From: an uncultured cyanobacterium
GTDB lineage: Bacteria > Cyanobacteriota > Cyanobacteriia > Phormidesmidales > Phormidesmidaceae
Direction: 5' to 3'
NCBI GenBank assembly: GCA_938029995.1
Contig: CALHGI010000618.1
Location: forward strand, 1-22,884
DNA: 22,884 nt
Below, in pieces: positions 2,360-13,242 of this stretch; the stretch's first letter is position 1, and each line of letters starts with the position of its first letter. Under the pieces are notes generated by a model. It was not told the origin of the DNA. It did not search any database and saw only the letters and a list, made by a program, of their open reading frames with translations. Both the position numbers and the translations under genes were made by a program.

Positions 2360-2387
2360 AAAAAAAAGGCAGTGCCTCAGCACTGCC
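2360..2387 (-). terminator. Rho-independent terminator of the atp operon
   Basis: In the minus-strand RNA a perfect 7-bp stem GGCAGTG/CACTGCC (2387-2381 with 2374-2368) with a 6-base loop is followed by eight U (2367-2360). It lies 43 bases after the stop of the gamma-subunit gene and ends the atp operon. Confidence 0.85.
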
Positions 2388-2430: not shown

Positions 2431-3375
2431 TTAGCCGAGGGCGGCTGCACCACCCACTACTTCCAGAATCTCCTGGGTAATAGCGGCCTGACGTGCCTTG
2501 TTGTAGTCAAGGGTTAAGGTTTTGACCAATTCACTAGCGTTTTCACTAGCATTGTTCATCGCCGTCATCCGAGCCGCTAGCTCACTGGCAGCAGATTCTT
2601 GCAATGCTCGCAAAATCTGATTGTTCAGATAGAGGGGCAACAGTGCATCCAGAATTTGAACAGGGTCCTGTTCAAAAATCATATCCTGGGGCAACTGCTT
2701 CTCCTGGGTTTCTACCGCTGAGCGCTCAACCTTAAACTGACCACCGCGACTGGTAAGACGGAAGATCTCATCTTCCTTGTCTAGACCGGCAGGATCTAAG
2801 GGCAGCAACGTTTGAGTAACCGGACGAGAGCTAACCAGAGAGACAAACTTGGTGAAAATCAGCTCTACACGATCAACTTCTTCCGACAAAAACAAAGACA
2901 GGGCTTGGTCGGCAATTTTAGAGGCTTCTTCCGCAGTTGGAATCTGCTCTAGACCTTCAAAGGTAGAGTCGATGGGATAATTACGGTTCTTGAAATACTG
3001 AACCGCTTTACGCCCAATCAGAATCATCTGATAGCCAATACCCGCTGCTTCTAGTTCCTTGGCACGATTCTCAGCTCGGCGAATAATATTGCCGTTGTAG
3101 CCACCGCATAGACCACGGTCGGCTGAGACCACCACCAAACCAACATTTTTGACGTCGCGCGTCTGCAATAGAGGCAGGTTCGCATCTTCAAACTTTAGTC
3201 GGGTTTGAAGACCGTAAAACACCTGGGCTAAGCGATCGGCAAAGGGACGAGTCGCCTCCACCTGTTCCTGGGCTCGGCGAACTTTTGCCGCCGCAACCAG
3301 GCGCATTGCTTCAGTGATTTTTCGAGTATTTTTGACCGACTTAATGCGGTCACGAATAAACTTGAGATTAGCCAT
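2431..3375 (-). CDS. atpG: ATP synthase F1 gamma subunit
   Basis: The gamma subunit is the central rotating shaft of F1. It couples proton flow through Fo to ATP synthesis on the thylakoid membrane. The 314 residues show the family's N-terminal coiled-coil helix ([20 protein letters not shown]), the central [11 protein letters not shown] motif and the C-terminal helix ending [14 protein letters not shown]. Residues about 198-235 form the extra segment found in cyanobacteria and chloroplasts but not in most bacteria. The disulfide-forming Cys pair of plant gamma is absent; Cys90 is the only cysteine. The enzyme should therefore lack thiol (thioredoxin) control, as is usual in cyanobacteria. 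The gene is last in the operon, 69 bases after atpA, and is followed by an intrinsic terminator. Cyanobacterial literature often calls it atpC. Confidence 0.98.
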
Positions 3376-3444
3376 ACGCGTTATTTACAGCCTGACTCCC
3401 CTCACTCCTACAAAAGGACGCAAGGGGAGCTAGACCAATGCCTC

Positions 3445-6284: not shown

Positions 6285-6713
6285 TTAAGCAGCTCGAGCA
6301 CCTAGCAGTTTGTCTAAAATCTGTTGACTCAAAACATCCACTTTCGACTCAAGAGCTTGAAAGGCCTCGCTTTTTTGTTGATCAAGCTCTCTTTGAACCT
6401 GCTCACGTTGTTGCTGGGCTTCAGACTGAGCCTGAGCGACCTGCTTATCAACAACTTCTTTAGCTTCAGCCTGAGCCTGAGCGATTAACTGCTGAGCCTG
6501 CTTACGACTGTCAGCGAGCTCCTGCTCATATTGTTTAGCCAGCTTTTCAGCCGACTCTAAATACTCTGCAGCGGAAGCTTTGTTATCGCGGATGTAGCCG
6601 TCGCGCTCATCAATCGTCTTCGAAATCGGCTTAAAGAAAACCGCATTCAGAAGAAACGTCAATAGTACAAATTGCAACGCCATTACAGGCAGTGTTGCGT
6701 CAAAATCAAACAT
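6285..6713 (-). CDS. atpF': ATP synthase Fo subunit b'
   Basis: This is the second, shorter stalk subunit that pairs with b in cyanobacteria and chloroplasts (called atpG or atpF2 in some genomes). It has 142 residues with one N-terminal membrane helix (PVMALQFVLLTFLLNAVFF). The typical KPISKTIDERDGYIRDN turn follows, then a long coiled coil rich in Gln, Ala and Glu (EAKEVVDKQVAQAQSEAQQQ). The ATG at 6713 is the only sensible start. It follows atpE after 179 bases that carry a strong RNA hairpin, so its expression relative to subunit c may be set there. Confidence 0.96.
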   Translation of the reverse strand: MFDFDATLPVMALQFVLLTFLLNAVFFKPISKTIDERDGYIRDNKASAAEYLESAEKLAKQYEQELADSRKQAQQLIAQAQAEAKEVVDKQVAQAQSEAQQQREQVQRELDQQKSEAFQALESKVDVLSQQILDKLLGARAA

Positions 6714-6820
6714 TCTTAGATTTCCCTAAACCTGAGAACCCACCAAAACGCAAGAAAGTTGAAGAAAAAGAGTGTTTATCTACTCAAACCACGTGTCATA
6801 AAACACAATGTAGTTAGAGA

Positions 6821-6876
6821 GGGCACTACCTGAATAACAGTTGCGTTCCCAGTGGAAACACATTCAGATAGCACCC
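6821..6876 (-). promoter_or_regulatory. Long RNA stem-loop directly after atpE
   Basis: In the minus-strand RNA, 6876-6862 pairs with 6835-6821 in an uninterrupted 15-bp stem. A second 8-bp stem (6861-6854 with 6850-6843) with a 3-base loop stacks directly on it, leaving a 7-base bulge (6842-6836) on one side. Five of the 23 pairs are G-U, and all five would be mismatches in plus-strand RNA, so the structure fits the atp transcript specifically. It starts 16 bases after the atpE stop. No U-tract follows, so it is more likely an mRNA 3'-end stabiliser or processing site than a full terminator. This fits the need for many more copies of subunit c than of the other subunits. Confidence 0.65.
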
Positions 6877-6892
6877 TTAACCCCAATTTTTC

Positions 6893-7183
<291 letters not shown>

Positions 7184-13131: not shown

Positions 13132-13161
13132 GGCCTTGTGTCTCCTAAGTTCGGTGTAAAG

Positions 13162-13192
13162 TGTTGCGCTATCTTCAATGGATAGCGCAACA
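13162..13192 (+). terminator. First hairpin after apcE
   Basis: A perfect 12-bp stem, TGTTGCGCTATC (13162-13173) with GATAGCGCAACA (13181-13192), has a 7-base loop and lies 30 bases after the apcE stop. There is no U-tract, so termination may be weak or it may mark an RNA 3' end. Confidence 0.6.
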
Positions 13193-13201
13193 TTGCCCTA
13201 A

Positions 13202-13242
13202 CAGAAATGGGCCATGCAATCTTGATGCATGGCCCATTTCTG
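13202..13242 (+). terminator. Second hairpin after apcE (17-bp perfect stem)
   Basis: CAGAAATGGGCCATGCA (13202-13218) pairs perfectly with 13226-13242 around a 7-base loop, only 9 bases after the first hairpin. The AAAT/ATTT ends give a partial U-tract. Together the two stems should separate apcE expression from the far more abundant apcAB message. Confidence 0.65.

Follow-up and report, generated by a model that had tools for sequence, protein, structure and literature searches.

Hairpins after atpE and other multi-copy subunit genes of cyanobacterial atp operons: a putative 3'-end barrier in the atp message

Introduction

How does one polycistronic message give many copies of subunit c (about 13–15 per ATP synthase), three each of alpha and beta, and a single a, b, b' and delta? 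The question is raised by a stretch of DNA from an uncultured cyanobacterium (hereafter the window, 22,884 nt in all), the minus strand of which carries the atp operon in the order atp1, a, c (atpE), b', b, delta, alpha and gamma, the names being given from gene order and tblastn. The top named relative of its c protein, among the matches listed, comes from a Leptolyngbyaceae metagenome assembly. Between atpE and atpF', a gap of 179 nt holds a hairpin for which an earlier examination of the letters alone (the sequence-only reading) had proposed selection on the structure of the sense-strand RNA, which might stabilise an RNA 3' end containing atpE or slow readthrough into atpF'. According to a 2024 review, nothing relevant has been reported in cyanobacteria on how subunit stoichiometry is set (PMC11124002). 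Hairpins at the multi-copy genes would be an inexpensive answer that can be tested directly, and they bear on how RNA 3' ends are formed and protected in cyanobacteria, which lack Rho.

A stable hairpin between atpE and atpF'

The hairpin (Table 1) is made of 15 basal and 8 apical pairs, and the count of 23 pairs in the sequence-only reading, with all five imperfect ones being G-U in the minus-strand RNA and none A-C, is upheld pair by pair. Its coordinates (6821-6876) and its distance of 16 bases from the atpE TAA (6895-6893) were also given correctly, and an additional A-U pair, 6877/6820, is able to close the base. Both of the stems described there are present; as a correction, they are separated by a 7-nt bulge on the 3' side.

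Table 1. Features of the window around the hairpin and at the end of the atp operon
Feature	Position in window	Strand	Basis or remark
Whole hairpin, atpE-atpF' gap	6820..6877	-	z -5.0 to -6.5, varying with the stretch folded
Basal stem, 5' arm	6862..6877	-	pair-by-pair count
Apical stem, 5' arm	6854..6861; loop 6853-6851	-	pair-by-pair count
Apical stem, 3' arm	6843..6850	-	pair-by-pair count
7-nt bulge separating apical from basal 3' arm	6836..6842	-	fold and pair count
Basal stem, 3' arm	6820..6835	-	pair-by-pair count
atpE, ATP synthase subunit c, upstream of hairpin	6893..7138	-	open reading frame and relatives
atpF', subunit b', downstream of hairpin	6285..6713	-	open reading frame and relatives
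atpA (alpha) 3' flank, structured	3365..3444	-	folding of flank, z -3.4
Terminator-like stem, then eight T, after atpC (gamma), operon end	2368..2387	-	

Folding of positions 6800-6900 against shuffled sequences, a check proposed with the sequence-only reading, came out in its favour: the minus strand has a minimum free energy of -35.4 kcal/mol (z -5.02), equalled by none of 200 shuffles, and the plus strand one of -16.4 kcal/mol (z -0.72), equalled by 44 of 200. For the 63-nt core, z is -5.9 on the minus strand and -2.9 on the plus strand, which indicates that a partial palindrome remains on the latter. Of the window's gene 3' flanks, 14 were tested, and that of atpE is the most strongly structured (z -6.5), followed by those of apcE (-4.7) and atpA (-3.4). 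A search of the window's own genome (about 70% complete) gave one match to the hairpin, not the several copies expected of REP-like elements. No Rfam covariance model matched it at the gathering threshold, and the two matches at a relaxed threshold were both implausible.

Retention of the stem within the genus

Six genomes of the genus, with five distinct gap sequences, were compared. For the 16 pairs of the basal stem, 90% of cells show pairing; shifting the partner by one to three columns lowers this to 38-55%. One-sided changes, mostly via G-U, affect eight pairs and two-sided changes two, and of the 80 cells 8 are unpaired, four of these at the top pair. In the apical stem, compensatory pairs are reported by RNAalifold. 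The loss of structure in close relatives, which the sequence-only reading had named as the observation that would count against it, is not what was found, the stem being retained in the genus. Column shuffling, a weak control with five sequences, reached the observed paired percentage in 27 of 500 cases and the covariation score in 115 of 500, and covariation in the genus was for this reason dropped as a formal proof. In a second genus (17 genomes), a different hairpin can be aligned, with pair types totalling 42 G-U and 4 A-C cells, a count that is only illustrative because the structure was predicted under RNA rules and many cells are inherited.

Other features of the same gap may be recorded here. 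In the five genus members other than the window, a helix that pairs alignment columns 6-13 with 110-117 is able to enclose the hairpin from outside, and in the gap after atpE of these loci (L003-L007) this outer helix and a second small hairpin form a possible three-way element round the main one; a larger conserved multibranch element is not claimed, three pairs of the outer helix being broken in the window. The alignment also shows a stretch just 5' of atpF' (window ~6714-6775, minus strand) that is better conserved within the genus than the hairpin.

Structure after atpE throughout much of the phylum

Loci for a wider survey came from among the matches listed and from 120 regions hand-picked for spread over genera; the genome searches matched 62 of 63, 124 of 146 and 142 of 145 genomes, a part of which was taken. 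Usable c-gene loci numbered 299 of 307, those excluded (L299-L306) lying outside Cyanobacteriia and having weak c matches, and they were grouped through shared 6-mers into 221 non-redundant clusters. Twelve clusters fall outside Cyanobacteriia (z < -2 in 6, z < -3 in 5 and U-rich tails in 5 of the 12) and were omitted from the position profile, the repeat and mismatch count, the stem-foot distances and the paired and lineage tests.

For the 80 nt 3' of the c stop, the median z is -2.84, and z < -3 is seen in 106 of 221 non-redundant flanks (48%); at other junctions of these operons this value is reached in 10/215 (a), 8/212 (b'), 2/210 (b) and 6/144 (delta) flanks. Scanning of the 209 Cyanobacteriia flanks in 50-nt sliding windows limits the structure to roughly the first 60 nt past the c stop, and no further peak was found in the scanned range round the a, c and b' stops. 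When flanks are paired within a genome, c is the more structured in 165/207 comparisons with a, 175/209 with b', 182/206 with b and 121/138 with delta. Restricting the count to gaps of at least 80 nt leaves z < -3 in 100/201 c flanks, 10/193 of a, 4/70 of b', 4/46 of delta and 1/1 of b; gap length alone is not the cause, since the a-c and c-b' gaps are about equally long (medians by homology of 150 and 164 nt). A hairpin recurs, then, at this position through much of the phylum.

Grouped on the identity of b', 207 of the 209 flanks fall into 20 lineages, and a median z below -2 is found in 13/20 of these for c, as compared with 2/19 for a, 2/20 for b', 1/20 for b and 0/17 for delta. There is no atpE signal (median z above -2) in five of the ten lineages with at least four members, those headed by L186, L230, L244, L263 and L286, and in some filamentous forms repeat-rich flanks may inflate z. 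The c paralogues of N-ATPase type were tried as a control (z < -3 in 0/14, z < -2 in 2/14) and set aside as a poor one because, judged by eye, the next gene often begins immediately.

Sense-strand bias and turnover of the sequence

The raw difference between sense and antisense folding energies was rejected as proof of strand bias: b' flanks give nearly equal values (-3.9 against -4.1) without a hairpin. A strand-neutral count of inverted repeats was used instead, the score of which weights G-T and A-C mismatches equally. Repeats scoring at least 10 occur in 81/209 c flanks, 14/207 of a, 15/209 of b', 2/205 of b and 7/134 of delta, and in 2.7% of 627 shuffled c flanks. The mismatches inside the c repeats comprise 63 G-T and 16 A-C, a G-T fraction of 0.80 against the 0.56 expected from base composition (p 1.1e-5, with mismatches treated as independent), and G-T is in the majority in 37 repeats and A-C in 8. 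The strand argument that the sequence-only reading had drawn from one hairpin is thereby extended to the phylum, and the selection on sense-strand RNA structure for which it argued is well supported.

The atpE hairpins of different genera are dissimilar in sequence. In genome G012, the hairpin (L009; G012:C610:1805-1832) is one of 12 matches to GTAGAGACG...CGTCTCTAC, a dispersed palindrome with the several copies per genome characteristic of REP-like elements, and this pattern is present in 8 of the 12 genomes searched. The position and fold of the atpE 3' hairpin appear to be retained while its sequence is replaced, which makes it a case where selection seems to hold the former two and not the last.

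Distribution over the subunit genes

A survey of alpha and beta was undertaken since the atpA flank of the window is structured. Beta alone had been predicted beforehand, alpha being followed up after its sighting in the window. From genomes already in the set, 40 longer operon stretches were taken (41 with the window), with gamma located after alpha in 34 of the 40. Flanks with z < -2 number 31/41 for c, 29/40 for alpha and 23/34 for gamma, as against 6/41 for b', 0/40 for b and 6/41 for delta, the b-delta gaps being too short to weigh much. Beta lies with epsilon apart from the main operon; one of 30 beta loci yielded no beta, and the remaining flanks, a sample weighted to close relatives, reach z < -2 in 19/29 and z < -3 in 9/29. 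Three members of the window's genus, one of them the window's own genome, have no structure in the flank close to beta. As a separate observation, the beta-epsilon gaps of the window genome and of G003 (L391 and L389) contain a long-range stem spanning the gap, not a hairpin near the beta stop.

Once similar flanks are taken out, strand-neutral repeats are found in 19/41 flanks of c, 16/40 of alpha, 11/25 of beta and 17/34 of gamma, and, among the single-copy genes, in 0/41 of b', 0/39 of b and 3/41 of delta. Their tails hold at least five T in eight positions in 1/19 cases for c, 0/16 for alpha, 3/11 for beta and 12/17 for gamma. Judged from these counts, and for a from those of the phylum-wide survey, the hairpins appear to mark the genes of multi-copy subunits and the operon end, and seldom those of single-copy subunits, and the c and alpha hairpins are not U-tract terminators, unlike most operon-end repeats. 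At the c/b', alpha/gamma and beta/epsilon junctions it is the upstream product that is needed in more copies.

Outside the cyanobacterial atp genes, two further loci were noted. In E. coli, the flank of alpha (atpA, z -3.65) is structured and that of c (atpE, z -1.07) is not (L308), while that of beta (atpD in L393) is unstructured (z -0.73). In the window, the apcE 3' flank (13132-13211, plus strand), upstream of apcA, carries a strong hairpin with no evident U-tract. The apcE product is a low-copy protein, and a reading in terms of stoichiometry leaves this strong structure without explanation.

A putative 3'-end barrier and its rivals

The window hairpin is a stable sense-strand structure between two genes of what gene order indicates to be one co-transcribed operon. 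Its kind is best explained, in our view, as a 3'-end barrier in the atp message that would stabilise the segments encoding multi-copy subunits, an explanation we consider fairly probable; of the roles that may be assigned to the hairpin, the stabilisation of a 3' end that includes atpE fits best. RNA cut or ending downstream would be degraded by 3'-5' exonucleases such as PNPase and RNase II until these halt at the hairpin, the segment ending with atpE would outlive that of b', b and delta, and more subunit c would be made from it; we infer each of these steps, namely cleavage, exonuclease arrest, longer half-life and more protein. Any stable sense-strand hairpin just past the stop would suffice, and so the position could be retained while the sequence is replaced, sometimes by a dispersed palindrome. 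The same device would operate after alpha and beta. Stable structures are reported to stop PNPase, and inactivation of PNPase to have failed in the cyanobacteria in which it was tried (PMC10989914).

In the array data reported for Prochlorococcus MED4, atpE has the highest level, and the half-lives are 13.5 min for atpE, 12.2 for atpA, 4.6 for a and 5.0 for atp1, those by qRT-PCR being 15.6, 6.2, 8.0 and 2.4 min, respectively (PMC2897979). Only atpE stands out in both, and the values are compatible with a barrier. They are not specific to it, because the authors prefer to explain them by promoter distance, by a roadblock and by an additional promoter ahead of atpE (PMC2897979). In S. elongatus, 75 of 163 defined ends without a U-tract are reported to be structured (PMC13289151), so that hairpins are not the sole route to an RNA end.

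Slowed readthrough was the other role offered by the sequence-only reading, and a partial terminator or pause, at which some RNA polymerases would be shed after atpE to leave fewer downstream transcripts, would suit a hairpin that separates a gene of high copy need from one of low copy need; the apical stem of the window gives a weak terminator-like pattern match, and termination in cyanobacteria, which are without Rho, is described as poorly understood (PMC13289151). No U-tract follows the stem directly in the window, however, and at least five T in the 8 nt past the stem are found in just 14 of the 209 Cyanobacteriia flanks; the c repeats carry one in 1/19 cases as against 12/17 at the operon end, and terminator-like matches in the atp region number 8 against 8.1 in shuffles. 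Readthrough slowed by intrinsic termination is accordingly disfavoured, and the partial terminator or pause in general we hold to be unlikely.

A structure that reduces initiation of the next gene would agree with the fact that single-copy subunit genes come after the hairpins, and in E. coli the uncD-uncC structure reportedly lowers next-gene initiation. The stem is tied instead to the upstream stop: in 70 of the 87 gaps that hold a good stem, its near foot and the c stop are no more than 30 nt apart, and an equally short distance between its far foot and the b' start is seen in 3 of the 87 by homology. Because an N-terminal extension of b' makes the homology-based distance too large, the earliest in-frame start was used in a recount, which gave 7/87 with ATG and 17/87 with GTG and TTG included. 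The argument covers c-b' and does not extend to alpha-gamma and beta-epsilon, where the gaps are shorter; a translational device seems to us very unlikely.

That dispersed palindromes or short repeats settle in the gaps by chance or insertion preference, with no function as RNA, is suggested by the 12-match family in G012 and by the repeat-rich look of the flanks in some filamentous forms. Against this stand the single genomic match of the window hairpin, the G-T excess on the sense strand, and the a-c gap, equally long yet structured so much more rarely, and we regard it as quite unlikely. The long stem would suit processing by RNase III or the release of a small RNA from the 3' region of atpE, and one to three genes for RNase III are usual in cyanobacteria according to PMC10989914; numerous stems are short, no Rfam family was matched, and the difference in sequence between genera is incompatible with an antisense RNA, all of which makes this alternative highly improbable.

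The tie to the stop, the lack of a U-tract and the choice of genes together fit a barrier to 3'-5' exonucleases. The wider proposal is that non-homologous and repeatedly replaced sense-strand hairpins stand after c, alpha and beta, and not after a, b', b and delta, and that differences in the stability of the segments contribute to c-ring and alpha3beta3 stoichiometry across much of the phylum; to this we give an even chance. Were it so, hairpins after c, alpha and beta would suggest a simple way of keeping more of the most-needed messages.

Comparison with known systems

In the literature, among the matches listed, neither a hairpin at this place nor the pattern over the subunits was found, an early mention in the classical atp papers being possible. 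With an intrinsic terminator the atpE hairpin shares a stable stem after the gene; it differs in having no U-tract and in being followed by co-directional genes of the operon. E. coli REP elements are reported to stabilise RNA 3' ends (PMC13289151), and of the two hairpins compared with such palindromes, that of G012 belongs to a family of this type, whereas that of the window has one match in the part of its genome available.

In the Arabidopsis chloroplast, a 3' end of atpH, the gene of subunit c, is reported at +151 at a predicted stem-loop (PMC3817242). The gene and the side are the same, and the stem-loop there defines a 3' end of a subunit c message; it lies farther from the stop than the cyanobacterial hairpin, and chloroplasts additionally use RNA-binding proteins.

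Intercistronic stabilising hairpins are nonetheless an already known device. Programmed decay as described in E. coli includes stabilisation of the tatA segment (PMC5927463), and the stabilising structures reported there resemble those considered here in that they stand beside the gene of higher need, have no U-tract and favour the upstream segment; TatA, like subunit c, is a ring-forming subunit. The E. coli structures lie mostly within the next coding sequence, and the cyanobacterial ones, for which stabilisation is proposed from position and fold, directly past the stop (PMC5927463 for E. coli).

The cyanobacterial hairpins would thereby join tatA and the further intercistronic cases puf and malE.
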